A stretch of DNA of 64,000 bases from the NCBI GenBank assembly GCA_026702755.1, contig JAPPBX010000001.1, positions 62,001 to 126,000 on the forward strand. Reading direction: 5' to 3'. Source of the DNA: Candidatus Poribacteria bacterium (GTDB lineage: Bacteria; Poribacteria; WGA-4E; WGA-3G). A program made the position numbers and the translations under genes. The notes under the pieces were generated by a model that saw only the letters and a list, made by a program, of their open reading frames with translations, was not told the origin of the DNA and made no database searches. Below, piece by piece: positions 18,049-55,130 of the stretch (positions are counted from its first letter, which is position 1; every line of letters begins with the position of its first letter).

Positions 18049-19176
18049 ATGAGACGTTTTGGAACCGAAGGTCGCTTGTATCTTGAGGATAACTATATTG
18101 TCCCGCGCACGGAAGAAACTGCCGATTTCATCGACCGCGTCAAACAGGGCAAATACATCGTGCTTTTCGCGCCACGCCAGACGGGTAAGACTACCTTTTT
18201 TCGTCTGGCACTTGACGCACTCACGGCTGAAGATCCGACCTACTTCCCCATTCAACTGAATTTTGAGGAGTACGAAAACTCCGCACCTGCAGATTTTTAT
18301 TCCTACTTCTATAGGGACGTTCGCAAAGAAATTGAAAACGTTTTTCAGAAACGCGGGGAGGTTCCTTCTGAAACGCTAATACAATTCTTAGATAACGTGA
18401 AGATAATAGATCACGTTTCAATGAGAATGTTTTTTGAAGAACTGGCAAGCTTTGTAAAAAATCAGAAGGTTGTCCTCCTGATTGACGAATTTGATGCTAT
18501 TCCACGAGATGCTGTTACGGGGTTCCTGCGTTCGTTACGCCGTATCTATCTTTCGGGGCGGACGCGATGTCCGCACAGCGTCGGTATCAAGAATATCATC
18601 CAACTTAACTACGATAGGTCTGTCTCACCCTTCAATATTCAGCAGGAATTCCATTTACCTAACTTTACGCTTGAACAGGTGCAAGAACTCCTTGGTCAAT
18701 ACACCGACGAAGTTGGTCAAGCATTCGTGCCTGACGTCGTAACTGCTATCCACAAACAGACTGCCGGACAACCCGTGCTTGTCAATCGATTCGCGCAGAT
18801 TCTCACCGAGGAATTGGACATCCCGAAAACCGAGCCGATTACGATGGAACACTTTACGACAGCACACACACAACTTCTCCACGCCAGGAACACCAACATC
18901 CAGCATCTGACAACCAATATCCGAAAAGACCCATGTTTTGAAAAAATCCTTATGCGGATTACCGCGCATGAGGATGGCGTGCCCTTCAACATAGATGACG
19001 ACAATATCAGTGAACTCGCAAGTTATGGAGTCATCTCCAGAGGGACTGACGGCATGTGTGAAATTGCCAATCCGATTTATCTCTATAGAATTTTGCGTGC
19101 ATTCAAGCCAGCAGTAAACGGATTAGAGGAGGAATACTTTCCTTCACGCAAAACCGAATCTATTTCAACAAGATAG
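18049..19176 (+). CDS. AAA-like P-loop ATPase
   Basis: 375 aa. Walker A is FAPRQTGKTTFF (about residue 45) and Walker B is VVLLIDEFDAIP (about residue 145); later LPNFTLEQVQELLGQYT and TAGQPVLVNRFAQIL resemble AAA-35/AAA-ATPase-like proteins that often accompany a C-terminal nuclease or TPR region. Here only the ATPase and a small winged-helix-like tail are present. GGAGAAAAGGA precedes the ATG. Function unknown; related stand-alone ATPases are abundant in filamentous and symbiotic bacteria. The 3' end overlaps the convergent pncB by 94 bases. Confidence 0.8.
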   Translation: MRRFGTEGRLYLEDNYIVPRTEETADFIDRVKQGKYIVLFAPRQTGKTTFFRLALDALTAEDPTYFPIQLNFEEYENSAPADFYSYFYRDVRKEIENVFQKRGEVPSETLIQFLDNVKIIDHVSMRMFFEELASFVKNQKVVLLIDEFDAIPRDAVTGFLRSLRRIYLSGRTRCPHSVGIKNIIQLNYDRSVSPFNIQQEFHLPNFTLEQVQELLGQYTDEVGQAFVPDVVTAIHKQTAGQPVLVNRFAQILTEELDIPKTEPITMEHFTTAHTQLLHARNTNIQHLTTNIRKDPCFEKILMRITAHEDGVPFNIDDDNISELASYGVISRGTDGMCEIANPIYLYRILRAFKPAVNGLEEEYFPSRKTESISTR

Positions 19177-20507
19177 GGTTTCGCTTCCGTTAAATGTTTA
19201 TGCGAATCCGGTAACTTTTTGAGTTCGGCGGTCATCAAGGTCTGAATGTCATGCAGGCTTGGAAAATCGTATACCAATTCCCCGTCTCGGATAATCGGTA
19301 TCAGGAGGGGTTGTCCATCAGAAATCGGTTCATCCCAAATTGTTACAACGTCTTTAGCATAATTCCCGTTAGCATCGGTGATACGATAGACCTGCTTCCT
19401 GCCCGGTAGCGTTGCCTTAGCAGGCTCATCATGCGATTGTTTTCCAACAGGCTTACCATCACGCTCGACCAACTTATAGACCCCACCCAAAGCAGAAGTC
19501 CCACCTTCGCCTGTGAATGAATTGAAGTTAGCTCCTGTAGCGAGACGCGTCCCCACCCCAAAACTATCAAGCGGTGCTCCGTTTTTGAGCAACGTGTCTA
19601 TCTGGAATTCATCAAGTTCATGGCTTGCGATAATTTGGACATAGTCAAGTCCCTCGGCATCAAAGATGCCCCGAACCTCTTTGCTAAGTGCTAAGAGATC
19701 ACCGCTATCCAGTCTGACTGCGCGTAATCGTTCACCTCGTGCTTCCATCTCCCTCGCGACGATGCACGCGTTTCTTGCCCCTTGAAGTGTATCGTACGTA
19801 TCTATCAGGAGCGTTGTGCTGTTTGGAAAGGCTACGGCATAATCGCGGAACGCTTCCAATTCGGTAGGTCGTTCGGAGATGAACTTATGCGCCATTGTGC
19901 CGACGTAGGGAATATCGAAATAGTGCCCCGCAAGCACCAATGATGTCCCGCTTGCACCACCGATGAAGGACGCGCGGGCGGCGAGGATACCGGCATCCCT
20001 GCCGTGTGCCCGCCTTGCCCCAAAGTCAAACACGGGTCTACCGCGCGCGGCTTGCACAATCCGTGAGGCTTTTGTGGCAATCAAGGTCTGGAAATTCATC
20101 ACACACAGCAGATAGGTTTCAAAGAGTTGGACATCGCGTGATCTGCCTGTGACGTTGATAATCGGTTCATTGGGAAAAACAGGTATGCCTTCAGGGACAG
20201 CGAAAACAGAACCATCAAAGCGGAAGTCTTTAAGGGAGGTAAGGTAGTCAGCGTGCAGGTCCCCCCGTTGTGCTAACCAGTCAAGTGCGGTATCGGTGAA
20301 GCGTAGATTTAAGATGTAGTGGATTACCTGCTCTAATCCAGCAGCAATGAGATATTGTCCTTGTGGAATCGTGCGGACGTAGTAGTTCGCTGTGATAACA
20401 GAATTATTCTGTGCATCGAAATCGGCTTGTCCCATCGTGAGTTGATAGTAATCAACGAAGAGTGCCATCTCATCGACTGTAAGTAAGACATCTTTTGGTG
20501 CATTCAT
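19083..20507 (-). CDS. pncB: Nicotinate phosphoribosyltransferase
   Basis: 474 aa enzyme converting nicotinate and PRPP to nicotinate mononucleotide in the Preiss-Handler NAD salvage route. The N-terminal LFVDYYQLTMGQADF, the substrate-binding FGARRAHGRDAG, GTMAHKFI with the His phosphorylated in this family, and LRAVRLDSGDLLAL are all typical. Its ATG overlaps the stop of the upstream lipoprotein gene (ATGA), implying coupled translation. The C-terminus overlaps the convergent AAA gene. Confidence 0.94.
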   Translation of the reverse strand: MNAPKDVLLTVDEMALFVDYYQLTMGQADFDAQNNSVITANYYVRTIPQGQYLIAAGLEQVIHYILNLRFTDTALDWLAQRGDLHADYLTSLKDFRFDGSVFAVPEGIPVFPNEPIINVTGRSRDVQLFETYLLCVMNFQTLIATKASRIVQAARGRPVFDFGARRAHGRDAGILAARASFIGGASGTSLVLAGHYFDIPYVGTMAHKFISERPTELEAFRDYAVAFPNSTTLLIDTYDTLQGARNACIVAREMEARGERLRAVRLDSGDLLALSKEVRGIFDAEGLDYVQIIASHELDEFQIDTLLKNGAPLDSFGVGTRLATGANFNSFTGEGGTSALGGVYKLVERDGKPVGKQSHDEPAKATLPGRKQVYRITDANGNYAKDVVTIWDEPISDGQPLLIPIIRDGELVYDFPSLHDIQTLMTAELKKLPDSHKHLTEAKPYLVEIDSVLREGKYSSSNPFTAGLNARKIL

Positions 20508-22879
20508 AGACCTTTTCCCTCAGTGATGACCAATCTCTGGTTGACTGATAGATTCCGATGCGTATCCACTTGACCGGAGGGCCAGACGATTTCAAGCGTA
20601 TCAACTTTTGTGTGCTTTCCAAGTCCGATCTCAAGAGGCAGACTATTCGTTGATCCGAAACCACATCCACCACTGACTTCTCTGTAAATCACACTGCTAC
20701 CAACACGCAGCGTCACTTTAGCACCAATACCATCCCGATTACTTTTGACCCCGACCAGTTTCAAATTAAGATAGTTGTTCCCAGTCCCCGTATTTTGATA
20801 GAAAAGATTATGCCACTGGTCCCCAATAAACGCCCCCCCGACAGGCACGTAGATATCAACATCACCGTCCGTATCAATATCACCGAAAGTTACGCCGTGT
20901 CCTTTTCCAATGTTGCCTAACCCTAAAGCGAAAGTGGCATCGGTAAAAGTGCCATCGCCGTTGTTGCGGAAGAGCGCGTCGCGTTCAAGCCGTCCCATCT
21001 GTGGCGCGCCAGTGGCAAGATAGATGTCAAGGTAACCGTCGCTATTAATATCGCCGAAGTTTGCGCCCATCGCGCCGAAAGCGTGATAGAGTCCTGACTC
21101 ACGGGTGACATCAGTGAATGTACCATCGCCGTTATTCCGATAAAGCACCTGCCGATCGCCATCGTGTGGCGCAGTTCCAGTTATTTGACCTGCGATGAAG
21201 GCTTGAAAAGATCCTGAGTTTGAGATGAAGATGTCCAGATCTGCATCGTTATCCACATCAAGAAAGAAGGTCACAAAGGCATCCGTAACGGGGAGATTCA
21301 TACCGGTCATCGGCGTGACATCAGTGAACGTGCCATCGCCGTTGTTCCGATAAAGCACATTGGACTGTCCGAAATTGACGACATGCAGATCAATATACCC
21401 GTCTTTATCGTAATCCCCCCAAGCTGTTCCGAGAGAGTTACCAGTATCTGCAACACCGGCTGCTTCTGCGATATTCGTGAACGTGCCATCACCGTTGTTA
21501 CGGTATAAGACGTTCGCGGCACCATCACCGATAATACCGTCCGCAACGTAGAGATCAATATAGCCATCGTTGTCATAATCTGCCCAAGCAGCACAGAAAC
21601 TGCTCTGCGGGTCCGCAACACCTGCGGTGTGCGTGACATCGGTAAATGTGCCATCACCGTTGTTATGATAGAGCGTATTCTCCGCTGCCCCCGACCAACC
21701 CCCACGCGTGATATAGAGGTCAGGGTAACCGTCGTTATCGTAATCAGCGAAAAGCGAACCCCAACCGCCTCTCGGATCGGCGATGCCCGCTTGTACCGCT
21801 GTGTTAGTAAATGTGCCATCGCCGTTATTTCGGTAAAGCGCGTGTGGCTGGTACGTCCCGACAGCAACGATATCCAAATCCCCATCATTATCGTAATCGC
21901 CCCAAGCACTCCCGCGTCCGCCATCAATCTTGTCCATCTTTAAGTCGGGGGCAATGTCGGTGAATTGGCTATCGGCTATCGGGTGGAAGGATGGAAGGGT
22001 GGAAGATTGGGGGACACCCATCCTTCCATTCTTCCTTTCTTCCATCCAAACGCCACTGATGGCTATTTTAAACTCCTCCGGTAAGTCTGCTGGATAGCCA
22101 CCGAGTTCATTAGATGCCGTCCATAGGTTCCATAAGGTTTCGGGATCGCGAGGTTTGAGCTGGAGCGACGCTTTGAAATTCTCAACAGCCTTTTCAGGCG
22201 CGCCGTGTCGGAGATGATAGACACCGAGATAGTAATACGCACCAGAATGACGGCGGTAATTTTGGATGATATTTTCAAATCGCTCAGCGGCTTTATCGGC
22301 TTCACCGAGACGGAATTCAGCTAAGCCGAGTTGGAGCATCGCTTCAAGATTATTCGGTTCAAGTTCCAGTACCTTTTCAAACTGCCGTTTGGATGCCGAG
22401 AGATCGGGGACAAGCATCTGTTGCGGCGCGCCTAAGAAATAGCCGAGCCTGATACGTGCCTCGGTATCATCAGGGTTTACCTCTAAAGCATTGGTGAGGG
22501 CAGTCGTAGAATCAGAAAAGCGTTGTTGATAACTGAAAACCTGCGCTAATGTTAGATACGCTCTCGAAAGTTTATCCTTCGCTTCCGGGACCTGTTTAAG
22601 TAGGTTTATCAGCGTTTGCAACGTCTCTTCGGCACGAGCAAACTTCTGCTGTCGGACATAGGTACGTGCAAGCAACATGCGTGCATCGTGGGCATTCGTA
22701 TCAATTCGTAGGCACGACTGAAATGCTTCTTCCGCTTCGACGAAGTTGTTCCTGTCTAATGCGTCCATGCCCCTCTGATAGTGCGCGGTGACTTGCGGGT
22801 TCGCGTCATTTTGGGGTGAATCTGTATTGCAGCCGATGCTGATAAGGAAGATAAGGAAAATAGAAAAAGTTGCTCGCAT
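20504..22879 (-). CDS. TPR plus FG-GAP/ASPIC-UnbV lipoprotein
   Basis: 791 aa. A lipobox (LISIGC) follows the signal peptide. Residues 30-265 hold about seven TPR units (for example GMDALDRNNFVEAEEAFQ, AEETLQTLINLL, PEKAVENFKASLQLKP). From about residue 305, repeated DYDNDGDLDI/YRNNGDGTFT units make an FG-GAP/VCBS propeller with Ca-binding motifs, and the C-terminus (NRDGIGAKVTLRVG, LEIVWPSGQVDTHRNL) is an ASPIC/UnbV domain. Likely outer surface or periplasmic; function unknown. Between the TPR and propeller regions a 30-residue segment (MEERKNGRMGVPQSS and the following ADSQ) is encoded by the dispersed repeat. Confidence 0.88.
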   Translation of the reverse strand: MRATFSIFLIFLISIGCNTDSPQNDANPQVTAHYQRGMDALDRNNFVEAEEAFQSCLRIDTNAHDARMLLARTYVRQQKFARAEETLQTLINLLKQVPEAKDKLSRAYLTLAQVFSYQQRFSDSTTALTNALEVNPDDTEARIRLGYFLGAPQQMLVPDLSASKRQFEKVLELEPNNLEAMLQLGLAEFRLGEADKAAERFENIIQNYRRHSGAYYYLGVYHLRHGAPEKAVENFKASLQLKPRDPETLWNLWTASNELGGYPADLPEEFKIAISGVWMEERKNGRMGVPQSSTLPSFHPIADSQFTDIAPDLKMDKIDGGRGSAWGDYDNDGDLDIVAVGTYQPHALYRNNGDGTFTNTAVQAGIADPRGGWGSLFADYDNDGYPDLYITRGGWSGAAENTLYHNNGDGTFTDVTHTAGVADPQSSFCAAWADYDNDGYIDLYVADGIIGDGAANVLYRNNGDGTFTNIAEAAGVADTGNSLGTAWGDYDKDGYIDLHVVNFGQSNVLYRNNGDGTFTDVTPMTGMNLPVTDAFVTFFLDVDNDADLDIFISNSGSFQAFIAGQITGTAPHDGDRQVLYRNNGDGTFTDVTRESGLYHAFGAMGANFGDINSDGYLDIYLATGAPQMGRLERDALFRNNGDGTFTDATFALGLGNIGKGHGVTFGDIDTDGDVDIYVPVGGAFIGDQWHNLFYQNTGTGNNYLNLKLVGVKSNRDGIGAKVTLRVGSSVIYREVSGGCGFGSTNSLPLEIGLGKHTKVDTLEIVWPSGQVDTHRNLSVNQRLVITEGKGL
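21962..22053. repeat. Dispersed repeat inserted in frame in the TPR/ASPIC gene
   Basis: On the plus strand the segment reads GGCTATCGGCTATCGGG, then a GGAAGGATGGAAGGGTGG arm and the matching CATCCTTCCATTCTTCC arm. It keeps the reading frame open and lies exactly at the linker between two domains. Confidence 0.8.
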
Positions 22880-23003: not shown

Positions 23004-24437
23004 CTAGGGTTTATCCTTATGCAATGTGCGCTTGAGGTGATATTGAAAGAGCTTAGAATAAACAAGAAGTTTTGAAATAAGATATTCCTGTCCACGATCA
23101 CCCTTGATCCTGTTACAGTGAGAACAGAGCAGTTGAAGATTTTCAATATGGTCAGTTCCCCCAACGGATTTCGCTATAATGTGATCAATTTCAAGGTGTT
23201 GTTTTTCAAAATGATAGCCGCATCCATTACAATTCCCAGCTTGCTCGCCGTAGAGTTGAATTTTGTTTTTAGATGCGTTGTATCGGGGAATATTGCCTAA
23301 ATCCGTGCGTTTGGGAATATCCGTGCGTGCAATAATTTCCTGAAACAATCCTTGATCTGCTTTGATGCGTTCAACAACTAACTCGGCGGCTTTCGCTGAT
23401 ATATCAATACCTATCCAATCCCGTTGAAGTCTATCCGCTGCGACGAGGGTTGTGGCGCACCCACAGAACGGATCGAAAACGACATCACTTTCGTTAGATG
23501 AGGCTTCAATGATTCTATTGAGTAGAGCAACGGGCTTTTGGGTTGGGTAGCCTGTGCGTTCACCATCTCCAGAAGCAAGATACGGTATATCTGTCCAAAT
23601 GTTCCCAACAGGTTCACCTGAGTATTCATCAGCATAAATCTTGTATCTTGGCTTTCCGGTTCTCGTCCAATAGATTAGGTATGGATTTTTGGCGATTCTT
23701 TCATCGAACGTTGATTGATTCCATCTCCACCCAATATCAGAGGTTACAGTTTTGTCTCCTATTTTACGAACTTCTCCGGCACTGGACCTATTTGAATTCT
23801 GTTCTAACGCTACATGCTGAAAACGACGACCCGTTTCGGTTTCTACATGCGGAAATTTCTTGTTTAATTTTTCTGTATCTAACTGTGAGGTTACCCTATT
23901 AGCGATAACACACATGTTGTCTTTGGCATAGTAAAGAAGATGATCCGATATAGTGTCAACGGCAGATTTTGATAGACTATGTGCCGCATAACGTTTCCAT
24001 GTTATGTCTGCTAAAAAATTTTCCTTTCCAAACACCGCATCCATTGCCAACTTCAGATAATGGCTCATTGTCGGATCGCAGTGTAGGTAGATTGACCCCG
24101 TATCCTTGAGTATCCTCTCCATCTCCAGCAACCGAACCGCCATATAAATGAGATAAGATTTATCGGAGTCCGTCATTGCCGCGTGGATAACTCGGTTGAG
24201 TGCAGGATATTTCGTCTCAATTAAATCAAGCCAAGCAGCATCAACATCATTAAGCGTCCACGTATCTTTGAATTCAGCACCGGCAGCTACTGAACCTATG
24301 GGGGCTGCGTAGTTAGTCTTGCTATTAAATGGTGGGTCAAGGTAGATTAAATCCACTGATTCACTATTTATCCCACGCATTATAGGTAAATTGTCACCCG
24401 TGAATATCGTCTTCGACTTAATATTCATGGTTTCCAT
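23004..24437 (-). CDS. DNA methyltransferase fused to an HNH endonuclease domain
   Basis: About 477 aa. Residues 20-365 form a beta-class amino-methyltransferase (motif IV LIYLDPPFNS early, motif I DPFCGCATTLVAADRL late, followed by DWIGIDIS). The C-terminal 100 residues form an HNH domain with zinc ribbon: CNGCGYHF, LEIDHIIAKSVGG and CSHCNRIKGDRG. A single polypeptide could therefore both modify and cut DNA. AAAGG nine bases before ATG 24437 favours that start over the frame opening at 24470. No separate specificity or helicase subunit is adjacent. Stand-alone solitary regulation is not evident. Confidence 0.88.
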   Translation of the reverse strand: METMNIKSKTIFTGDNLPIMRGINSESVDLIYLDPPFNSKTNYAAPIGSVAAGAEFKDTWTLNDVDAAWLDLIETKYPALNRVIHAAMTDSDKSYLIYMAVRLLEMERILKDTGSIYLHCDPTMSHYLKLAMDAVFGKENFLADITWKRYAAHSLSKSAVDTISDHLLYYAKDNMCVIANRVTSQLDTEKLNKKFPHVETETGRRFQHVALEQNSNRSSAGEVRKIGDKTVTSDIGWRWNQSTFDERIAKNPYLIYWTRTGKPRYKIYADEYSGEPVGNIWTDIPYLASGDGERTGYPTQKPVALLNRIIEASSNESDVVFDPFCGCATTLVAADRLQRDWIGIDISAKAAELVVERIKADQGLFQEIIARTDIPKRTDLGNIPRYNASKNKIQLYGEQAGNCNGCGYHFEKQHLEIDHIIAKSVGGTDHIENLQLLCSHCNRIKGDRGQEYLISKLLVYSKLFQYHLKRTLHKDKP

Positions 24438-24594
24438 ACAAAACAGCCTTTCATCATCGCATAGATTCATTCACAAACTTTGTGAAAATGCACTCACGGT
24501 TGAGGTTGCAGCCTCCCTTTTTAACTGCAATGATTATACCATTTTTCACGACTTAAAACAAGCGAACAGTCAATAAAATCAAGGGTTTAGTCCC

Positions 24595-24858: not shown

Positions 24859-26376
24859 TCACTGGGGTGGCAACTTTTTCAAGAGTTCTTCTGCGGCTTT
24901 CCTATAATCTTGTTTCTTCCCATGTTCGACGACGCGCTGTAGAAACTCTCTCGCCCTTGGGGCGTTATCCTGATAGTAGTATACCAAACCGATATAGAAA
25001 TGGTATACCTCGTTTCTGCTATAACGAGACAAAGTATTATACTGGTCCAGCAACAGCGTGAGGAAATCATCATTCTCGGCATAGAATCTTTCGTTATTCA
25101 AAACGTAATCGTTTCCATCCCACTCGTAGAAACTCATCCAATCCAGATATGACGCTGTCGGTCCCGTGTCGTTAGATATTTTGTCGGGAATCTTGATCTC
25201 GTAGATGCCATCATTATCCAGATCAACGTATTCTATGGGGTCCTCCCTTTTGTGGGAACTATACGCACTGCAAATTTCCTTGAACTCACCCTCTTGAAAC
25301 GAAATCACAGCCATTCCGTAGGCATGCTCAGCCCATACGTCCAAAACGCCGTCGCCTGTCAAATCAACGAGTTTAAAGGAGACGGACTTGAAAGCCCCAC
25401 TTCCGCTCCAATGGTCCCGGAAGATGAAAGGGGCGCTTTGAACTTCAATGGTTTTCACGGGGACATTCAAATCATGAGACGACCCGCCAAAAAGTCCGAA
25501 CAATTCTTTTTTCTTGGGAAACCCGGTTATCTCGGTCTCAGCCTCAGCAATGAGGAGAAACGCTTCGCTCCATTGCCCCACTTCTACCCATTCTCCCTTT
25601 GGCTCAGCCACCATGAGAACAATCGTCTCTTTTTTGGCGGTATCATCAATATTTGCGATCGCTTTCAGCCGCGTCGTGTAAGAGCGTTTTTCCGAGGGCG
25701 GGTTTCCCAAAAAACGGTGATACTTTTGACCCCCAAGATCATAAGGCCAGTCATACCTTACGTACTCGACATCAAAAGCATCTGTGAGTTTCTCTCTGCT
25801 AACGGTATAATTGCTGAAGACTTCCTTGAACGCGCCATCCTGAAACGAGATGAGTGCCACCCCGTGTGCAGATTCCACCCAAACATCCAAAATGCCATCG
25901 TCCGTCCCATCTACGAGTCTAAAGGAGACATCCGTCGATTCTGTGAAGACCAATGGGGCGTTATGAAGTTCAATAGATTTCGTTGAGACATCTAACGGGT
26001 CGTTCCCTGTATCAAAAAGTTTGAATAAGGCTTTCCTCTCAAGTTTCCCTGCTTTTCTTTCAGCGATGATGAGAAATGCTTGTCTCCAATTGTTAAGGTC
26101 TGCGGGCCTGGTGGAGTTTGTATTACCAAGGATTAGCACAATGTTCTCTTTCCCGGGGGTGTCATCAATATTTTCGGTGACTCTCATCCTGCTATGGTAA
26201 TGGAGTCCCTCGGGTGCGGGGGAAGGTAAAAAACCGTGATATTCTTCAAGATCGTAGAAGGGGGAATAACAACTATAGCTGATCCGAGACGTGGTTGCTT
26301 TCGGGGTATCCGCATTTACAGGAACCAAAACCGTAAGTATCAGCAAAATGCTGAGTCCAAGGCGTGTAGTTTTCAT
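24859..26376 (-). CDS. Secreted tandem-paralogue protein, copy 1
   Basis: About 505 aa from ATG 26376, which has GGAGAC upstream; signal peptide MKTTRLGLSILLILTVLVPVNA. Two homologous repeats of about 190 residues follow, each with a strand-rich part (NIDDTPGKENIVLIL, NWRQAFLIIAE, KALFKLFDTG) and an FG-GAP-like LVDGTDDGILDVWVES-HGVALISFQDG segment. A final module has DLDNDGIYEIKIPD (Ca-binding-like), YAENDDF and a TPR-like tail ending in AAEELLKKLPP. Not recognised as a named family. It is the distal member of five co-directional paralogues. Confidence 0.78.
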   Translation of the reverse strand: MKTTRLGLSILLILTVLVPVNADTPKATTSRISYSCYSPFYDLEEYHGFLPSPAPEGLHYHSRMRVTENIDDTPGKENIVLILGNTNSTRPADLNNWRQAFLIIAERKAGKLERKALFKLFDTGNDPLDVSTKSIELHNAPLVFTESTDVSFRLVDGTDDGILDVWVESAHGVALISFQDGAFKEVFSNYTVSREKLTDAFDVEYVRYDWPYDLGGQKYHRFLGNPPSEKRSYTTRLKAIANIDDTAKKETIVLMVAEPKGEWVEVGQWSEAFLLIAEAETEITGFPKKKELFGLFGGSSHDLNVPVKTIEVQSAPFIFRDHWSGSGAFKSVSFKLVDLTGDGVLDVWAEHAYGMAVISFQEGEFKEICSAYSSHKREDPIEYVDLDNDGIYEIKIPDKISNDTGPTASYLDWMSFYEWDGNDYVLNNERFYAENDDFLTLLLDQYNTLSRYSRNEVYHFYIGLVYYYQDNAPRAREFLQRVVEHGKKQDYRKAAEELLKKLPPQ

Positions 26377-26429
26377 GTTTTTTGTCTCCGATTCGGTCTG
26401 TTGGATATCAGACGCGGAAGATTCGTTTT

Positions 26430-27920
26430 TCAATGAGATGTCAATTTTTTCAAGAGGTCTGCTGCGGCGTGAACATATCTATCGTTTTCGGCATTTTCGG
26501 CTACCCACTGTAGATACTTTCTTGCCATTGGAACGTCGCCGCGATAGTAGAAGACCAATCCTATGTAGAATCCGTATTCGTCGAATCTTCCATATTGAAT
26601 CAACACATGATTATAAAGGTCCAATAACCCAATGAGGAACTCGTCATTCTCGGCATAGAATCTTTCATTATCCAAGACGTAGGTGTTTCCATCCCACTTG
26701 TAAAGACTCACCCATTGCGGATACGACGCGCGAGCACCACCACCGCTGACAGATATTCTGTCGGGAATCCTGATTTCATAGATGCCATCGTTATCAAGGT
26801 CAATGTATTCTATGGGGTCCTTTCTTCTGATAGAACTATAGGCACTGCAAACTTCCTTGAACTCGCCGTTTTGAAAAGAAATGACAACCGCGCCGTGGTG
26901 AGATTCCATCCATACGTCTAAAATGCCGTCACCCGTCAAATCCAAGAGTTTAAAGGAAACGGTGCGAGTGCCCCAAGAATGAACGCTGGTCAATTCTCGA
27001 AAGACGAAAGACGGGTTCTGAACTGCAAGGGTGAATAAGTTTTTTTTCTTTGGAACTCCATCTGCCTCGGTTGTCGTAATCAGGAGATACGCTTGGGACC
27101 ACTCGCCGTAAATGTCGATTCCATCTCTATAAGCCGCCACTAAAACAATGGTTTCTTTTTCCTGGGTATCGTCAACATTTGCGATAGCTGCTCTCAGGGT
27201 CTCGTAACGATATCTTTTTGATGGGAGGGAGGGCAGAAACCGCTGATACATCTGCCCTTGAAATTCAAGTCCAAACTCCGACCAATGGTACTCAACATCA
27301 GGCGTTTCTGCGAGTTTTTTTCTGGTCACGGTGTAGTTGGTGAGGACTTCTTGGAATACACCGTTCTCAAAAGAGATGAGCGCAACCCCGTGGGCAGATT
27401 CCACCCAAACATCTAAAGTGCCATCGTCTGTCATATCCGCGAGTCTAAGCGAAACATCGGTCGGTAGCTTGAGGTTTCCGGAGGGTAGACTGTGAAGTTC
27501 GATGACCTCCGCTGCCGGGACCTCCAATGGATGTGCCCCTGTGTCAAAAAGTTTGAATAACGCTTTTTTCTTCGGAACCCCATCTGCAGTGTTCTCAGTA
27601 ATGAGGAGAAACGCTTGGTGCCAGTTGCCGAAGGCTGCGTGAGGTTTTGTACCCACAACCATCAGAACAACGGTCTCTTTTTCGGGGGTGTCATCAACAT
27701 TTGAGATGGCTGTTATCCGAGTATGGTAATAAAGTTCTTCAGGGACGGGGTTAGGCAAAAAACGGTGATACTTTTGCTCGTGATGATCATTGAGGTGATA
27801 GTAGTAGTTATACTTGACCTGAGAAGTCATCGTTTTAGCGGTATCCGCATTCACCGCAGAAGCAGTAAGTATCAGCGAAATAGCAAGCCCAAAAAGTATG
27901 GTTTGAATGTGTTGTTTCAT
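26430..27920 (-). CDS. Secreted tandem-paralogue protein, copy 2
   Basis: 496 aa with signal peptide (FGLAISLILTASAVNADTAK). Same architecture as copy 1: two repeats (VDDTPEKETVVLMVVG and VDDTQEKETIVLVAA start the strand part; LADMTDDGTLDVWVES and LLDLTGDGILDVWMES end it), then DLDNDGIYEIRIPD and a TPR-like C-terminus. GGAGAAAAAAT precedes ATG 27920. The C-terminal 200 bases are almost identical to those of the broken copy 4, suggesting recent duplication or gene conversion. Confidence 0.78.
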   Translation of the reverse strand: MKQHIQTILFGLAISLILTASAVNADTAKTMTSQVKYNYYYHLNDHHEQKYHRFLPNPVPEELYYHTRITAISNVDDTPEKETVVLMVVGTKPHAAFGNWHQAFLLITENTADGVPKKKALFKLFDTGAHPLEVPAAEVIELHSLPSGNLKLPTDVSLRLADMTDDGTLDVWVESAHGVALISFENGVFQEVLTNYTVTRKKLAETPDVEYHWSEFGLEFQGQMYQRFLPSLPSKRYRYETLRAAIANVDDTQEKETIVLVAAYRDGIDIYGEWSQAYLLITTTEADGVPKKKNLFTLAVQNPSFVFRELTSVHSWGTRTVSFKLLDLTGDGILDVWMESHHGAVVISFQNGEFKEVCSAYSSIRRKDPIEYIDLDNDGIYEIRIPDRISVSGGGARASYPQWVSLYKWDGNTYVLDNERFYAENDEFLIGLLDLYNHVLIQYGRFDEYGFYIGLVFYYRGDVPMARKYLQWVAENAENDRYVHAAADLLKKLTSH

Positions 27921-27962
27921 ATTTTTTCTCCGTTTCGGTGTGTCTGAGTAAGAGGTCGTTTT

Positions 27963-29006
27963 TCATCTTGGCGGTGGTGGCAGTTTTTTTAAGATAGATT
28001 CAGCGGCTTGAACGTAATCGTTCTGTCCTCCACGCTCGACGACCAGCTTCAGAACTGCTCGCGCTCCCATTGTGCTGCCGCGATAGTAGTATACCAACCC
28101 TAAGTAGAAACTGTATATCTGGCACTGTTTGGTAAACGTTCCGCGGCGAAGCATCTGATAATTATATTCGCTCAATAAGCGAATGAGGAAATCATCGTTC
28201 CCAGCATAGAATCTTTCGTTATTCAAGACGTAAGCGTTTCCATTCCACTCATAGAGGCTCATCCATGGCAGATAAGGGGCACCGGGAACCCCTTCAATTT
28301 GTATGCTATATGGAATCTTTATTTCATATCTACCATCGTTATCAAGGTCAATGTACTCAGGATCAGGCAGAGGTCCGGGAACCGTATAGGAACTGAAGGT
28401 TCCCTCAAATTCGCCGTTTTGAAAAGAAATGACAACCACAGCATAGCCGAATTCAACCCATACGTCTAAAATGCCATCACCCGTCAAATCAACGAGTCTA
28501 AAGACAGAGTCGCGAGACTTAAAAGCATCTTTCGGAGGTTGGGTGAAGACGAACGACGGGCTTTGAAGTTCAATGGAAGCCTTCGTTGGAACATCCAACG
28601 CATGTGTGCCGGCATCAAAAAGTTTGAAAACATGTTTCTTCGTCGGTGCCCCTACTTGGGAACCAGTTTCAGTAATCAAAAGAAACGCTTGAACGCAATC
28701 ACTATCGTATGGGTATGAGGACACCTTTTTATCAATAGTGATTAGAACGATGGTCTCTTTTTCGGGTGTGTCGTTGATATTTGCAGTGGCTACCATCCGA
28801 GTAAAGTAATAAAGTCCTTTCGGTAACTGGGTCGCTAAAAAGCGATGATATGCGTGCCCCTCAAAATCATTATCATTTGTCCATTCGTATCTCTGATACT
28901 CGATATCAGAAATTTTGGGTGTTTGCGTGTCAGCATTTACTATTCCACAACCGAGTATCACCGAAATAGCAAGTCCAAAAAGTGTGGTTTGAATGTGTTG
29001 CTTCAT
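27963..29006 (-). CDS. Secreted tandem-paralogue protein, copy 3 (single-repeat form)
   Basis: About 347 aa from ATG 29006 (GGAGAC upstream). The signal peptide ends near VNADTQ. Unlike its neighbours it keeps only one strand/FG-GAP repeat (INDTPEKETIVLITI, LVDLTGDGILDVWVE) before the shared DLDNDGRYEIKIPY and TPR-like C-terminal module. It therefore shows that the doubled repeat is not obligatory. Confidence 0.76.
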   Translation of the reverse strand: MKQHIQTTLFGLAISVILGCGIVNADTQTPKISDIEYQRYEWTNDNDFEGHAYHRFLATQLPKGLYYFTRMVATANINDTPEKETIVLITIDKKVSSYPYDSDCVQAFLLITETGSQVGAPTKKHVFKLFDAGTHALDVPTKASIELQSPSFVFTQPPKDAFKSRDSVFRLVDLTGDGILDVWVEFGYAVVVISFQNGEFEGTFSSYTVPGPLPDPEYIDLDNDGRYEIKIPYSIQIEGVPGAPYLPWMSLYEWNGNAYVLNNERFYAGNDDFLIRLLSEYNYQMLRRGTFTKQCQIYSFYLGLVYYYRGSTMGARAVLKLVVERGGQNDYVQAAESILKKLPPPPR

Positions 29007-29056
29007 GTTTTTTGTCTCCAAATTCGACCCATCTGATGACGGATCGTTTTCAATCC

Positions 29057-30568
29057 TCACTGGGGTGGCAATTTTTTCAAAAGAGATTCAGCGGCTTGGA
29101 TGTAACTATCGTTTTCGGCATGTTCGGCGATCCATTGTAGATACTTACGCGCCATTGGAATGTCGCCACGATAGTAGAATACCAGTCCTATGTAGAAGCC
29201 ATATTCGTCAAATCTTCCATATCGCATTAACACATGATTATAAAGGTTCAATAATCCAATGAGGAACTCGTCATTCTCGGCATAGAATCTTTCATTATCC
29301 AAGACGTAGGTGTTCCCATCCCACTTATAAAGGCTCATCCATTGCGGATCCGCCGCACCAGGGACACTGTCGATGCCTATGCAGTCGGGAATCCTGATTT
29401 CGTAGATGCCATCGTTATCCAAGTCAACGTATTCTATCGGGTCCTCCCTTCTGGCAGAACTATAGGCACCGCAGACTGCCTTGAATTCACCATCTTGGAA
29501 AGAAATCACAGCAACACCGTAGGCACATTTCACCCAGATGTCTAAAGTGCCATCGCCCGTCAGATCCACGAGTCTAAAGTGAGTAGCATTGATAAAATCC
29601 CAAGTGATCCTACTGAACCGTTCCCGAAAGACGAAGGGTGCACTCTGAAATTCAATCGTTTTCCCCGGCACATCAATATGATACATGCCACCATCGAAAA
29701 GTTTGAATAACTCTTTTTGCTTAGGAAACTCGCCTGCTTGGGTATCAGTAATGAGGAGAAATGCTTGGTTTCATTCATCTCCTTCATTAGCAATCATTAG
29801 AACAATGGTCTCTTTTTCGGGTGTGTCATCGATATTTGCAATGGCTTTCTTCACGGTAGTGTAACTGAGTCCTTCCGGTGGTGGGACACCCAAAAAACGG
29901 TGATACGTCCGTCCCTCACGGGAAGTCAGATTATCGTAAAAGTGATATTCATCAGGGGTTTCTGTGAATTTCTCTCTCGTAAGCGTGTAGTTGCTGAAGA
30001 CTTCCCTGAATTCACCGTTCTCAAAAGAGATGAGCGCAACCCCGTGTTCAGATTCCACCCAAACGTCTAAAGTGCCATCACCCGTCAAATCCACGAGTCT
30101 AAAGGAGAGATTGATCGGTTCAGTGAAAACGGATGGTGGGTTATGAAGTGCAATCGCTTTCGCTGCTGGGACCTCCGACGCATAAGTTCCCGTATCAAAA
30201 AGTTTGAATAAGGCTTTTTTCTCGGGTTTCCTTGCCTTGATGTCCGTAATAAGGAGAAAGGCTTGGTGCCAGTTGCCGTAGTCTGCACCGTGTTTCCTAT
30301 CGATAACGATTAGAGCAATGCTCTCTTTTTCGGATGTGTCATCAACATTTGTGAGGGCATCCATCCGGGTATAGTAATAGAGGTCTTCAGGTGCTGGATT
30401 AGGGAAAAAACGGTGATACCTTTTGGTAAAAGTATTTTCGCGATAGTAATAGCGATACACGACTTCTGAAGTCGTGGTTGTGGAGGTATCTGCATTCGCC
30501 GAAAAAGCAGTGAGTAGCATCATTGAAATAGTAAGTGCAAAAAGTGTGTTTTGAAGAAATTGTTTCAT
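29057..30568 (-). pseudogene. Secreted tandem-paralogue protein, copy 4, interrupted by one TGA
   Basis: The signal peptide and first repeat run from 30568 to an in-frame TGA at 29771-29773; the same frame then continues without further stops to 29057. Comparison with the paralogues (GEWVQAF in copy 5, NNWRQAF in copy 1) shows that the TGA occupies a conserved Trp position (codon TGG), so one substitution broke the gene. The downstream part (QAFLLITD, LVDLTGDGTLDIWVK, DLDNDGIYEIRIPD, KKLPPQ) is intact. A 29686-29057 product could be re-initiated at an internal ATG but would lack a signal peptide. Confidence 0.85.
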
Positions 30569-30618
30569 ATTTTTTCTCAGCTTCGTTGTGTCTGCTGTCA
30601 GACAGGAGCGTCTGCTTT

Positions 30619-32166
30619 TTAATACGATGTCAATTTTTTCAAGAGTTCTTCGGCGGCTTTCCTATAATCATCGTTTTCTGCATTTCTGGCGACGCGCTGT
30701 AGTAGTTCTCTCGCCATTGATGTCTTGCCGCGATAGTAGTATACCAAGCCGATGTAGAAATGGTATATTTCCTCATTTCTTGAAAAAGGCTGCCAAAAAA
30801 TATACTGCTCTAATAAGCGAATGAGGAATTCGTCGTTCTCAGCATAGAATCTTTTGTTATTCAAAACGTAAGTTGTGCCATCCCACTCGTAGAGGCTCAT
30901 CCATTCCGGAGCCGCTGCGCCAGGGGCACCCTTGATATGTATGCTATCAGGAATTTTGATTTCATAGATACCATCCTTATCAAGATCAACGTATTCTATC
31001 GGGTTCTCGCTTCTTGGGGAACTATAACCGCCGCAGACTTCCACAAACTCGCCGTTCTGAAACGAAATCACAGCGACACCATAGGCACATTCAACCCAGA
31101 TGTCTAAAATGCCATCGCCTGTCAAATCTACGACTTCAAAGGAGACACCGTAGTAAAACCAAGGTTGATCTTTCCGCACTTTCCAAAAGACGAAGGGAAC
31201 ACTCTGAAGTTCAATCGTTTTCCCTTGCACATCAAACGCATGTGTGCCAGCATCAAAAAGTTTGAAAAGCTCCTTTTTCTTTGAAACCCCATCTGCTTCG
31301 TCCTCCGCAATAACGAGAAACGCTTGAACCCATTCGCCCTGGGGGGCATCAACACCCGTATCAGCAGTCATTAGAACAATCGTCTCTTTTTCAGGCGTGT
31401 CATCAATATTTCCAATCGCTGTCTTCCGAGTGTTGTAATAGAGTCCTTCAGGTGCCGTAGCAGCCAAGAAGTCGTGATACTTCTGCCCCTTAGGATCAAA
31501 CCGAACATTGTAACCGTAATACTCGATGTTAGTGGCTTCTGCAAGTCTCTGTTTGCTCACAGTGTAGTTTGTGAGGACTTCATTAAATACGCCGTTGGCA
31601 AAAGAGATCAGCGCAACCCCATAATCGGATTCCACCCAAATATCCAAAGTGCCATCACCCGTCAAATCTACAAGTCTAAAGGAAACACTGTCCGGTTTAT
31701 GAGCAGCTTCATGTATTTCCGAGAAGATGACTGACCGGTTATGAAGTTCAATGGATTTCGCTGCTGGGACCTCCAACGGATGCCTGCCTGTATCAAAAAG
31801 TTTGAAGAACGCTTTTTTCTCCAGCTTCCTTGCCTTTGTGTTAGTAATGAGGAGAAACGCTTGGTGCCAGTTGCTGAAGCCTGCGCGAGGTTTTGAACCC
31901 ACAACGATTAGCACAACGGTCTCTTTTCCAGACGTGGCATCGATATCTGCTGAAGCTATCATCCGGGTCTGGTAAAAGAGGGCTTCGGGTGCCGGATTCG
32001 GCAAAAAACGGTAATACTTTTTCTCGCTAAGATCATTAAACTCATAGTAATAGTGATATGTGACTTGAGAAGTCGTCGTTTTGGCGGTATCCGCATTCAC
32101 CACAAAAGCAGTGAATATCAGTGAAAGAGTAAGTCCAAAAAGTGGGATTTGAAGAGGTTGCTTCAT
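30619..32166 (-). CDS. Secreted tandem-paralogue protein, copy 5
   Basis: 515 aa, signal peptide MKQPLQIPLFGLTLSLIFTAFVVNA. Two full repeats (IDATSGKETVVLIVVG, LVDLTGDGTLDIWVES; IDDTPEKETIVLMTA, VVDLTGDGILDIWVE), DLDKDGIYEIKIPD and a TPR-like C-terminus (HFYIGLVYYYRGKTSMARELLQ). It is the promoter-proximal copy of the five-gene array. The gap upstream (32167-32483) holds a degenerate repeat and no obvious promoter that I can defend. Confidence 0.78.
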   Translation of the reverse strand: MKQPLQIPLFGLTLSLIFTAFVVNADTAKTTTSQVTYHYYYEFNDLSEKKYYRFLPNPAPEALFYQTRMIASADIDATSGKETVVLIVVGSKPRAGFSNWHQAFLLITNTKARKLEKKAFFKLFDTGRHPLEVPAAKSIELHNRSVIFSEIHEAAHKPDSVSFRLVDLTGDGTLDIWVESDYGVALISFANGVFNEVLTNYTVSKQRLAEATNIEYYGYNVRFDPKGQKYHDFLAATAPEGLYYNTRKTAIGNIDDTPEKETIVLMTADTGVDAPQGEWVQAFLVIAEDEADGVSKKKELFKLFDAGTHAFDVQGKTIELQSVPFVFWKVRKDQPWFYYGVSFEVVDLTGDGILDIWVECAYGVAVISFQNGEFVEVCGGYSSPRSENPIEYVDLDKDGIYEIKIPDSIHIKGAPGAAAPEWMSLYEWDGTTYVLNNKRFYAENDEFLIRLLEQYIFWQPFSRNEEIYHFYIGLVYYYRGKTSMARELLQRVARNAENDDYRKAAEELLKKLTSY

Positions 32167-32483: not shown

Positions 32484-33878
32484 CTACAAGCCTGCCAATC
32501 TCGCTTTCAGTTCTTCTTGTTGGACAGGTTGCGTCAAATCCATAAGATAGATCCGCATGTGGTCCGAACGGTCGGAACTAAACACAAGTCTCTTTCCGTC
32601 CCGTGAGAGGCTCGGTTCAAAATGGGCACCGACGTGGTTCGTCAGCTGCGTTTTATTTGTGCCATCGGCGTTCATCATCCAGAGCGTATAATGGTTATGC
32701 GCGTTTGACACATAGATAATTCGCTTGCCATCCGGACTGAAAATCGGATGATAATGGCTTGCGTTCGTGAATGTCAATTGTTTCGCCGTGCCGCCTGCTG
32801 CGCTAACGCTGAAAATCTGGTAGATGTCTCCCACCATTGCGGTGAAGGCGATCTGCTTTCCATTGGGTGCCCACGTTGGATGTCCGTCGTCCACATCGTT
32901 ATGTGTCAGCTGCTTCTTGTTTGTGCCATCACTATGAATGACGTAGATTTCTAAGGTATCATTATTCTCGGTGCTTCCCGGACCACCACCTGTCTCTTGC
33001 GCAGGAGCCTTGGATTCAAAGGCGATCTTTTGCCCGTCAGGTGAAAAGACAGGCGCACGTTGTGCCCCCTCTATATCAATCAATGGACGCTGGTTTTTCC
33101 CATCAACGTCCATAAGATAGATCGTCGCACTCTTCGGATCAGAGCCGCTCGCTTGAACAGGTGGGAGCATCATACCACCGCGGGTGCGCTCTGTAACAAA
33201 GGCAATCGACTTCCCATCTGGAGAAAAAGCAGGCATATATTCATCAAGTTCCTCGGTATGCGTCAATTGGTGGAGTGAACGCGTCGTGAGATCCATGAGA
33301 TACAATTCGGCGTTCTGGAGGCGATTGGAGGCGAAGGCAAGCCATTTTCCATCAGGCGAGATTGCGGGACTATAATCGTCCGTGTACTTGGCAGTAAACG
33401 TCATCATATTCCCTTTTTCGGTAAAGGTCTGCTCGTAATCGTCACTGCCTTCGGTGCGGAGACGTTGGACATGGTAGGCATCACCGGTGAGTCCAGCCAA
33501 TTGAAGGAGCACTTCTTTTTTTCGAGAACCCCTTAGCAGATTTTGAAACTGAACAAGCGCAAGGGAACGGTCATTATTGTGCCAATAAACGCGCCCGAGT
33601 GCCAAAGTGATTTCTGCCCGTTTCGGTGCCAACTTCACAGCATTTCTGAAGGCATCGCTCGCTTGTGTCGCATCCTCTAACTTTTCATACACCAAACCGA
33701 GCTGATAGTAAGCCTCGGCATTGGAAGGGTTCTGCTTAATTGCCGCTTCAAACTGCTGAATGGCAGCAGTCGTGTCGCCTGTTTCAAGAAATGCTTTGCC
33801 GCGCTCAAGGGTAGGATCTCCACCACATGCGAGTAGCACTAAAAATATAGAAATGAATAGATAGAAAGAGTTTCTCAT
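32484..33878 (-). CDS. TPR plus TolB/WD40-like beta-propeller lipoprotein
   Basis: 464 aa. A lipobox (VLLACGG) follows a short signal peptide. Residues 20-130 hold three TPR units (LETGDTTAAIQQFEAAIKQNP, AYYQLGLVYEKLED). The rest is a PD40/TolB-like propeller with repeated SPDGKWLAFASNR, SPDGKSIAFVTER, SPDGQKIAFES and SPDGKRIIYVSN motifs. Probably a periplasmic or outer-membrane protein that binds partner proteins; not TolB itself, as no Tol/Pal genes are nearby. Confidence 0.85.
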   Translation of the reverse strand: MRNSFYLFISIFLVLLACGGDPTLERGKAFLETGDTTAAIQQFEAAIKQNPSNAEAYYQLGLVYEKLEDATQASDAFRNAVKLAPKRAEITLALGRVYWHNNDRSLALVQFQNLLRGSRKKEVLLQLAGLTGDAYHVQRLRTEGSDDYEQTFTEKGNMMTFTAKYTDDYSPAISPDGKWLAFASNRLQNAELYLMDLTTRSLHQLTHTEELDEYMPAFSPDGKSIAFVTERTRGGMMLPPVQASGSDPKSATIYLMDVDGKNQRPLIDIEGAQRAPVFSPDGQKIAFESKAPAQETGGGPGSTENNDTLEIYVIHSDGTNKKQLTHNDVDDGHPTWAPNGKQIAFTAMVGDIYQIFSVSAAGGTAKQLTFTNASHYHPIFSPDGKRIIYVSNAHNHYTLWMMNADGTNKTQLTNHVGAHFEPSLSRDGKRLVFSSDRSDHMRIYLMDLTQPVQQEELKARLAGL

Positions 33879-33888
33879 TTGACAGTAT

Positions 33889-33947
33889 TGGCTTTCGGTT
33901 TTCGGCTTTCTTGCTGACAGCCGACGGCTGATTGCTGATGGCTATTC
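33889..33947. repeat. Dispersed palindromic repeat supplying a stop codon
   Basis: GGCTTTCGGTTTTCGGC-type words followed by CTGACAGCCGACGGCTGATTGCTGATGGCTATTC. On the minus strand its GAATAG end contributes the final Glu and TAG stop of the FG-GAP/ASPIC gene (stop at 33942-33944). Confidence 0.7.
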
Positions 33948-35723
33948 TTGCCTTATCTGGATTCGCTGATTTACCGGTATATTATGGCGTGTTTGCGTCT
34001 CTCCATTCTGCCAAGTAATCTGTAACGTCTCAATACGGGAGGCGTTCCCTACGCCGAATTCAGCGACGAGACTGTTAAAAGACATGTAGCTATCACCGGC
34101 ATAAATTTCCCGTATCTGCGTCTGATCTGCCGTTTTCACTTGGATCTTTGCACCAATAGCATCTCGATTTCCGCCTGTTCCAATTAATTTAACATGCAGC
34201 CAATTGTTTTGCCCTGTTAATATACTGCGGTCGCCCTCATTGCGCAACAGAGTCGGTGGTGCATGGTTATTGACGATGAAAATATCAACATCGCCATCGT
34301 TGTCATAGTCGCCAAACGTCGCCCCGCGACCAACTCGGAGAGGGAGTGCGGCAATCCCCGTGCTCTCACTAACATCGGTAAACACTCCATCCCCATCGTT
34401 TCGGAACAACGCATCAGGTTGAGGGATAAGCACCTCCGGTTGTTTAAGCTCCTGAAAAGTGCTGCCGTTTGTTACAAAGATATCCAAATCACCATCGTTG
34501 TCGTAGTCAAAGAAAGCAGTCCCCCATCCGATCTGCTTGATACTCTCCTCAGCAAGCATCGCCGTATAGGATTCATCTACAAACCTGATACGTTCAGCGA
34601 TTCCATCCTCTTTGAACAAATTTCTATAGAGTGCGTTTTCCTCGTCAACCCAGTGACTCATAAAGAGGTCAATATCGCCGTCAGCATCATAATCACCGGC
34701 AGTGAGTCCCATAGAACCTCGAAAATCCGCTGCCCACGATTCATCGCTTACATCGGCAAACGTTCCGTCACCATTGTTGCGATAGACATGGTTCGTGGAG
34801 GTATCATTTGCAACATAGAGGTCCAGGTCGTTATCATTATCAAAGTCGCTAAAAACGGCTTGCATACTTCTACCACCTGTCGCCGCTACTCCTATCTCAG
34901 CGGTTGTGTCGGTAAAAGTGCCATCTCCGTTATTCCGATAAAAAACGTTATCTTGAGGTTCAAAAACATGTGGATTCAGCGCACTCGGCACCGGTTTTCC
35001 AGATTGTACCGATTCCTCCTTCATCTGTTCCAGCTGTTCCAAATCGTAGGTGACATAGTTGCAAACGTAGAGATCGAGGTAGGTGTCCCCGTCCACATCC
35101 GCGAAGGCAGCACCGGTACTCCACAATTCACAATTGACACCGGCTATCTCCGTCACATCGGTAAAGGTGCTATCCCCGTTGTTTCGATAGAGCACGTTCG
35201 CGCCATAATTGGTTAAGTAAAGGTCAAGGTCGGCATCCGCGTCGTAATCGGCGAAAACACACCCCATGCCGTATCCTTGATGCCCAACACCTGCAGGACG
35301 CGTGATGTCCGTAAACGTGCCATCACCGTTGTTACGATATAACGCATTGGCGTTTCCTTTATTACCACCGCCATCTTGTGTGAAGGGACCGGGGGTATTG
35401 ACAATATAGAGGTCAATGTCCCCGTCGTTGTCTATATCGGCGAAACCTGCGCCAGATCCCATGTCCTCTGGAAGTAGACTGGAACGGGTTCCGCTTGAAT
35501 GCTGGAAATCGATACCGGCTTCGTTGGTGACATCCGTAAAGGTAACCGCGTTTAGCGTCATAGCTGTTAGCATAGAGATTGCAAACGCGAGAATGGCTAT
35601 CGGCTTTCGGCTTTCGGCAAAGAGAAGTAGGTTTTCTTTTACACTATTTGCCGACTGCTGACTGCCGAAAGATTTTCTGAAAGAAAATCGCCCTGACTGC
35701 CATTCTTGATGACTATTTTTCAT
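33942..35723 (-). CDS. FG-GAP/ASPIC-UnbV (CRTAC1-like) exported protein
   Basis: 593 aa. After a hydrophobic segment (PIAILAFAISMLTAMTLNA) begins a CRTAC1-like propeller: FTDVTNEAGIDFQHSSG, FADIDNDGDIDLYIVN, YRNNGDGTFTD repeated about six times, and a C-terminal ASPIC/UnbV domain (GGNRDAIGAKIQVKTADQ, LQITWQNGETQTRHNIPV). Surface or periplasmic; function unknown. The ATG at 35723 overlaps the accC stop (ATGA). The first 45 codons are repeat DNA, ending in the same AESRKP peptide as in the PQQ protein, so the true start may lie further downstream. Confidence 0.85.
   Translation of the reverse strand: MKNSHQEWQSGRFSFRKSFGSQQSANSVKENLLLFAESRKPIAILAFAISMLTAMTLNAVTFTDVTNEAGIDFQHSSGTRSSLLPEDMGSGAGFADIDNDGDIDLYIVNTPGPFTQDGGGNKGNANALYRNNGDGTFTDITRPAGVGHQGYGMGCVFADYDADADLDLYLTNYGANVLYRNNGDSTFTDVTEIAGVNCELWSTGAAFADVDGDTYLDLYVCNYVTYDLEQLEQMKEESVQSGKPVPSALNPHVFEPQDNVFYRNNGDGTFTDTTAEIGVAATGGRSMQAVFSDFDNDNDLDLYVANDTSTNHVYRNNGDGTFADVSDESWAADFRGSMGLTAGDYDADGDIDLFMSHWVDEENALYRNLFKEDGIAERIRFVDESYTAMLAEESIKQIGWGTAFFDYDNDGDLDIFVTNGSTFQELKQPEVLIPQPDALFRNDGDGVFTDVSESTGIAALPLRVGRGATFGDYDNDGDVDIFIVNNHAPPTLLRNEGDRSILTGQNNWLHVKLIGTGGNRDAIGAKIQVKTADQTQIREIYAGDSYMSFNSLVAEFGVGNASRIETLQITWQNGETQTRHNIPVNQRIQIRQE
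35594..35701. repeat. Dispersed repeat read as the N-terminus of the FG-GAP protein
   Basis: Contains GGCTATCGGCTTTCGGC, GCCGACTGCTGACTGCCG and a perfect hairpin GATTTTC-TGAAA-GAAAATC (35671-35689). The hairpin recurs with compensatory changes near 41.17 and 43.38 kb. Confidence 0.75.
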
Positions 35724-54339: not shown

Positions 54340-55119
54340 ATGAATCGTTGGACGCAGCTAAGTATTGAGTTTGCCAATCAGAGAAACTATCTAGATGAAT
54401 TGTTTCGTGTTTATCCAACAATTCCCGAAGGAATTCGAGATATTGATGAAGATCTATGGGAACAAGTAGAACAGTCATTTCAGGAAAGAGACAATACCGC
54501 GCTGTTAAATGCATTACTCAAATTAGACTTGTTCCCAATAAAAGATTCCTATGTTGCGTATCTGAAAAGGGACAAGAGTGCAATAGGGAAAAACCCAAAT
54601 ACAGTTGATAGATTATGTGGTAGACTTTATGAAATGGGATTAGAGAAAATTTACGAACGTTCCTCTAAGCCGAAAGAAACAAATAGGCAAATTGGCCCCT
54701 TATTTAGACGCTGGTTAAACAAAGGGGCATTGGGCGTTCAACCCATTTCTCTTGAAGATTTTCTTGCGTCAGACGATAATGCTGTCTTGGATGCGAGCGA
54801 CGCTCAAATGAAGGACTTTGCCAAAGAACAACTAAACTACACGCGCAACAAAGGATTAGATTTTCTCGCAAGATTTAACGGTAAATATGTAATCGGCGAA
54901 GCCAAATTTTTAACCGACTTCGGAGGGCATCAAAACGCGCAATTTGATGATGCAATACGTGTTGTCGAAACGGAGGTCAACGCTGTTTCGGTTGCCATTT
55001 TAGATGGAGTTCTCTATATCAGAGGGCGTACTAAAATGTATCGTGCGATTACCCAAGACTTAACCCAGTATAACATCATGAGTGCATTGGTTTTAAGAGA
55101 GTTTTTATATCAACTCTGA
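54340..55119 (+). CDS. Restriction endonuclease of the restriction-modification pair
   Basis: 259 aa. The C-terminal half has GLDFLARFNGKYVIGEAKFLTDFGGHQNAQFDDA, a PD-(D/E)xK-type core (the D of GLDF, then E-x-K in GEAK). A similar layout occurs in type II enzymes; the exact specificity cannot be read from the sequence. It is 11 bases from a methyltransferase gene. Its base composition is AT-richer than its neighbours, consistent with transfer. The start ATG 54340 has CAGGGAAAT upstream. Confidence 0.8.
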   Translation: MNRWTQLSIEFANQRNYLDELFRVYPTIPEGIRDIDEDLWEQVEQSFQERDNTALLNALLKLDLFPIKDSYVAYLKRDKSAIGKNPNTVDRLCGRLYEMGLEKIYERSSKPKETNRQIGPLFRRWLNKGALGVQPISLEDFLASDDNAVLDASDAQMKDFAKEQLNYTRNKGLDFLARFNGKYVIGEAKFLTDFGGHQNAQFDDAIRVVETEVNAVSVAILDGVLYIRGRTKMYRAITQDLTQYNIMSALVLREFLYQL

Positions 55120-55130
55120 AGGGTTATCAA

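Follow-up and report, generated by a model that had tools for sequence, protein, structure and literature searches.

How does a bacterium come to carry five related genes for exported repeat proteins in a row, and what might the row be for? The question is raised by positions 24859 to 32166 of a 64,000 nt stretch of DNA (hereafter, the window) from a Candidatus Poribacteria MAG of 5.84 Mb in 126 contigs. An initial annotation had described five tandem, co-directional genes here and had read them as a product of active duplication. Its description of the array was mostly right, and its history of the array mostly wrong. The genes are paralogous and all lie on the minus strand; we label them c1 to c5 in transcription order, so that copies 1 to 5 of the initial annotation are our c5 to c1. 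The array is a lineage-specific member of an already known kind of protein family.

The first gene in the row is c1 (30619..32166, 515 aa), followed by c2 (29057..30568), c3 (27963..29060), c4 (26430..27920, 496 aa) and c5 (24859..26433). All encode two repeat units except c3, which encodes one. The broken gene noticed earlier as copy 4 is c2, where a single in-frame TGA leaves two ORF pieces (29771-30568 and 29057-29686). The likely start of c3 is the ATG at 29006 (listed as GTG 29060) and that of c5 an ATG near 26376; a GGAG- or GAG-type site precedes the likely ATG start of each of the five genes. The intergenic gaps among c1 to c4, as listed, are 50, -4 and 42 bases, and the five genes may form a single operon. 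Scans for promoters and terminators gave fewer sites than shuffled sequences did and for that reason were not used, and an Rfam search of the whole window gave no match at the gathering thresholds. Two further two-unit copies are located on another contig of the same genome, C76.

Family members combine a signal peptide with one unit or two, each about 170 residues long, together with a DLDNDG loop region and a tail of helices. The NAD-type cleavage site reported initially is a general feature: by our own pattern, a VNA|D-like site was scored in 58 of 66 full-length members. The hydrophobic N-terminus and signal-peptidase I site are those of a Sec-exported protein, and export is predicted from this Sec-type signal peptide only. 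As a cysteine lies at most six residues before the cleavage site in 21 members, lipoprotein processing of some is possible. The FG-GAP-like repeats were also confirmed, since FG-GAP_3 (PF13517) matches occur in all genes, above the Pfam cutoff of 26.9 bits in two of six ORFs (c1, 31.3; c4, 28.0) and below it in c5, c3 and both pieces of c2. Loops of the DxDxDG metal-binding type are present: DLTGDG is invariant or nearly so and DLDNDG nearly so, and the first-blade loop (NIDDTPEKE) is degenerate. We read each unit as two putative blades, with the degenerate NIDDT loop in the first and DLTGDG in the second, and DLDNDG as opening another, which would give three or five FG-GAP-like blades according to the family form.

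The predicted structure of the one-unit protein c3 was good (pLDDT 79.4, pTM 0.74), and that of the two-unit protein c1 moderate (pLDDT 68.5, pTM 0.53). The top fold matches were propeller blades of DDB1 and of integrin alpha chains, with Z values of 8-10 over approximately 100-165 residues; because such values are near the range of merely common arrangements, the fold is assigned from sequence and structure jointly. The fold searches returned propeller blades and TPR pieces and no full-length match, an absence that excludes no family, and a search of NCBIfam gave no useful match. The C-terminal tail forms four or five helices in both models and was matched by Foldseek to the YbgF TPR (63 columns, rmsd 2.4, E 0.042). 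This agrees with the TPR-like tail of the initial annotation, with weak TPR_2 matches in two of the five genes (16.3 and 17.3 bits), no ORF reaching the TPR profile cutoff of 27 bits.

Poribacterial genomes carry many genes with PF13517, TPR, WD40 and LRR domains, according to passages of Kamke et al. (2014, PMC3909097). The array proteins resemble FG-GAP/VCBS repeat proteins (PF13517) in their FG-GAP_3 matches, DxDxDG-type loops and secretion signal, but few of their ORFs pass the profile cutoff, and the three or five blades of our reading contrast with a full seven-bladed propeller. They are also like the eukaryote-like repeat proteins of sponge symbionts (ankyrin, TPR, WD40 and LRR) in being exported, by prediction, and in adjoining genes for secreted WD40 and LRR proteins; unlike those proteins, they have a short TPR-like tail only. 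Literature searches combining Poribacteria with FG-GAP, tandem duplication, HGT and VCBS/TPR did not show the family, nor did passages of PMC3909097 and PMC8546597, the former describing no such family or array in those passages; we do not claim that the family is unpublished. A second, larger family of repeat proteins is represented in the window by an FG-GAP-type protein at 33942-35723, which has 17 matches in the genome.

When 72 genomes of the order were searched with an alignment of the one-unit proteins, 21 matched: 18/38 in the genus, 3/18 in a second genus, 0/2 in a third genus of the same family and 0/14 in other families. Ten genomes of the wider class, searched with c1 alone, gave no match, and a scan of public genomes with one protein gave two loci among nine candidate stretches. 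The family is specific to Poribacteria. Both the one-unit and the two-unit forms are present across the genus, and since 20 of its 38 genomes lack the family altogether, it is dispensable. A relict of about 58 codons persists at one locus (L062; G029:C150:6743-6916) where relatives carry one to six copies, and thus loss has occurred.

The neighbourhoods of other family arrays have features of their own. In relatives, an ECF sigma factor fused to leucine-rich repeats adjoins the family at L043:4095-6995 and, as named by eye, at L042:12771-15737, and one fused to a GHL15 glycosyl-hydrolase-like domain does so at L045:15143-17383; such fusions of a sigma factor with repeats or an enzyme domain are unusual. 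Tandem triplets encoding a protein of approximately 220 residues with no Pfam match lie beside arrays in three genomes, at L045:12446-14650, L048:6091-8290 and L049:24-2147.

The interpretation that we favour, at roughly an even chance, is that the array belongs to a family of exported binding proteins, whose ligand and function we infer, and that it has been shuffled by gain, loss and exchange within an insertion hotspot. Exchange had been proposed earlier, with the 3′ parts of c2 and c4 described as nearly identical. Their identity is 87% over 300 nt, which makes that description an overstatement. A segment shared by c2 and c4 was supported on all variable sites (0/5000 permutations) and more weakly on third positions (35/5000), and the 3′ end of c4 is closer to the orthologue of c2 in G001, the nearest sequenced species, than to c2 itself. 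By part, the nearest relatives of c4 are the third copy of G001 (first unit), a gene of G011 (second unit) and the type represented by c2 and the first copy of G001 (3′ end). Similarly, parts of c1 are about 90% identical at the nucleotide level to both C76 paralogues, and its middle is 88-93% identical to the gene that occupies this site in G017. Copy c5 lacks close relatives within its own genus, and its single close relative is in another (G077); the two genes are 87% identical in nucleotides overall, rising to about 96% across roughly 200 codons (alignment codons 160-340), and the core genes of the two genomes are 76% (accC), 71% (an FG-GAP gene) and 75% (nadV) identical. On third positions, exchange was supported at 0/5000 permutations for three pairings: c1 and a C76 copy, c5 and the G077 gene, and c4 and the first copy of G001.

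Segmental exchange is therefore real, but the array has no special claim to it. Third-position signals appeared in 8 of 101 pairs of flanking genes versus 16 of 253 family pairs, and since the flanks show them as often, exchange characterizes these genomes in general, not the array in particular. Under a strict pairwise test, exchange was detected in 5 of the 253 pairs of two-unit genes and in none of the 741 one-unit pairs. The PHI test was strong for two-unit genes (z -21.7, 0/300) and weak for one-unit genes (17/300), but it is not relied on because several flank controls (z -0.9 to -10.5) were significant too.

Selection on the proteins is purifying, with omega between 0.13 and 0.40 in 19 close one-unit pairs, which are not independent of one another. 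Pooled omega for the mature protein was 0.23; the second-blade metal loop was at 0.08 and residues 91-100 of the c3 model at 0.77. These residues, a loop between beta strands, form the most variable stretch (entropy 2.75 versus a loop mean of 1.43), and the positive selection on loop residues that the initial annotation had proposed to look for was not seen even here. The variable loop is compatible with a binding protein in which a single loop is free; relaxed constraint explains it equally.

The latter possibility leads to the main rival of the binding interpretation, an idle multigene family that decays under weak constraint, persists through ordinary homologous recombination and has no role in diversification. 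We consider this somewhat unlikely, although several observations speak for it: copies are broken not only here (c2) but also in G017, G015 and others, the family is missing from more than half of the genus, exchange is no commoner than in the flanks, and omega is higher for orthologues (0.25-0.33) than for flanking genes (0.06-0.16). Against decay, most copies retain long open frames under purifying selection, the metal-loop residues are invariant, and new copies continue to arrive from other species and from another genus.

The array occupies a chromosomal site with fixed borders. On the left is a TPR and PD40 protein (32484..33878, minus strand), conserved in 35 of the 38 genomes of the genus; on the right is a conserved TPR and FG-GAP-type protein (20504..22879, minus strand), adjoining a nicotinate phosphoribosyltransferase-like gene (19083-20507) found in 35/38 genomes. 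The products of 20504-22879 and 19083-20507 are named from their sequences, with a family assignment for the group only. Also between the borders is further cargo, a gene for an N6/N4 DNA methyltransferase fused to HNH (23004..24470, minus strand), which is 72% identical in amino acids to its counterpart in G001 (dS 1.37). The TPR-PD40 and nicotinate phosphoribosyltransferase-like borders lie on one contig in 29 genomes, in which the site was compared, and on different contigs in six more. The site is empty in 18 of the 29, with a border spacing of 2.4-2.9 kb; three of these (G011, G008 and G021) were inspected and have the FG-GAP-type border gene alone in between, and the other 15 were called by spacing alone. 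Family members occupy it in four genomes, with five copies in the window, three in G001, two in G007 and one in G017, so that copy number varies between species, in support of the initial annotation.

Seven further genomes carry other cargo at the site: type III restriction-modification in G031, the methyltransferase-HNH with a CAP12/Pycsar-like TIR protein in G006 and G020, ankyrin proteins in G023, an ankyrin-like protein (by eye) in G009, an IS1595-type transposase in G028, and unassigned genes in G025. The methyltransferase-HNH proteins of G001 and G006 are 98% identical where the flanks are approximately 80-85% identical, which points to transfer. Chromosomal insertion hotspots hold interchangeable cargo, defence genes included, and the array site is like them in its fixed borders and in cargo that differs by species. 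It is unlike them in that no integrase is seen; none was recognized among the ORF translations between the borders in the window, nor was a transposase. Exchange at the site probably proceeds via homologous recombination in the flanks. Elsewhere in the window, at 54340-56150, a restriction-endonuclease-like and a DNA methyltransferase-like gene (named by eye) lie in a stretch with a G+C content of 39.9%, against 45-54% elsewhere, and were probably acquired.

The company that the site keeps in relatives, together with the fast turnover of presence and absence, would suit array genes that are themselves conflict cargo of a defence-type hotspot, for instance immunity proteins in the periplasm or decoys for phage receptors. 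We regard this as decidedly unlikely. PADLOC profiles at E 0.01 assigned no family to c1 or c3, and none of 29 pattern-matching stretches in viral contigs encodes a relative. Moreover, most other sites of the family adjoin WD40 and LRR genes rather than defence genes, and a shallow look revealed no toxin partner.

The genes are tandem, co-directional and related, and c2 and c4 share a 3′ segment, all of which had suggested that the copies arose locally and recently by tandem duplication, with deletion and gene conversion thereafter. The ages of the copies make this history very improbable. Synonymous divergence between window copies is 0.63-1.9, whereas that of flanking genes is 0.08-0.21 to G001 and 0.31-0.45 to G007; the copies are therefore not recent duplicates and, judged by this divergence, are shown to predate the split from the nearest sequenced species. 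Different copies are shared with different relatives: c2 has an intact orthologue in G001 (92% amino acid identity, dS 0.14), c3 one in G007 (87%, dS 0.28), and the second unit of c1 is common to the single, interrupted gene of G017 (support 100/98).

A tree built on 92 units, which come from 79 members, leads to the same result. It excludes units below 80% of the model length, two rows (L038 and L039) that duplicate L045 and L056, and one row with no unit match (L085_543_815). The units fall into first units of two-unit genes, second units, and a third group of 36 of the 46 single units, whose fork is moderately supported (91/88); of the remaining single units, eight are placed among second units, one among first units and one apart. 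No window copy is sister to another in any unit group. The unit of c3 is in the third group, adjoining the one-unit gene that G007 has at this site; c3 was therefore not made by loss of a repeat, as had been supposed for copy 3; its one-unit lineage is old. Unit loss may be the origin of the eight single units among second units.

That the array is an assembly artefact is extremely improbable: the MAG is fragmented and the TGA of c2 is possibly a sequencing error, but the copies are too divergent for mis-assembled repeats, a five-copy array is also present in the single-contig genome G005, and orthologues occupy the same site in three other species.

Our data are most consistent with a model of exported binding proteins at a hotspot. 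Copies at the site come and go between species by gain and loss, several are mosaics formed by homologous exchange with paralogues of the same genome, of other species and in one case of another genus, and the site takes up other cargo in other species; this part of the model can be read directly from the genome comparisons. The proteins would be placed in the periplasm or outside the cell, where the beta part may bind a ligand via the variable loop and the TPR-like tail a partner protein; as the set of copies changes, each lineage would come to have different binding specificities. The odds that they bind beyond the inner membrane in this way, with the copy set fixing specificity, seem to us about even, given the signal for export, the architecture of repeats, the exchange and the variable presence of copies, together with the general roles of FG-GAP and TPR domains. 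Variable surface-protein multigene families change by segmental exchange. The array family is like them in its copy-number variation, mosaics and one hypervariable loop, and unlike them in that positive selection is not seen and exchange does not exceed that of the flanks. A bolder version, which we think unlikely, is that these are interchangeable recognition proteins traded between sites, species and genera via defence-type hotspots, each sponge symbiont lineage obtaining its own combination of ligand specificities from swapped segments of a single fold.

Overall, our analysis cautions that a tandem array may look freshly duplicated in one genome although its members are older than the species. 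A site with fixed borders, whose cargo differs between close species, is usable to follow gene flow in Poribacteria. If the proteins bind ligands of the sponge, of phages or of neighbouring cells, the family would offer a defined set of genes for studying how outer proteins diversify in uncultured sponge symbionts.
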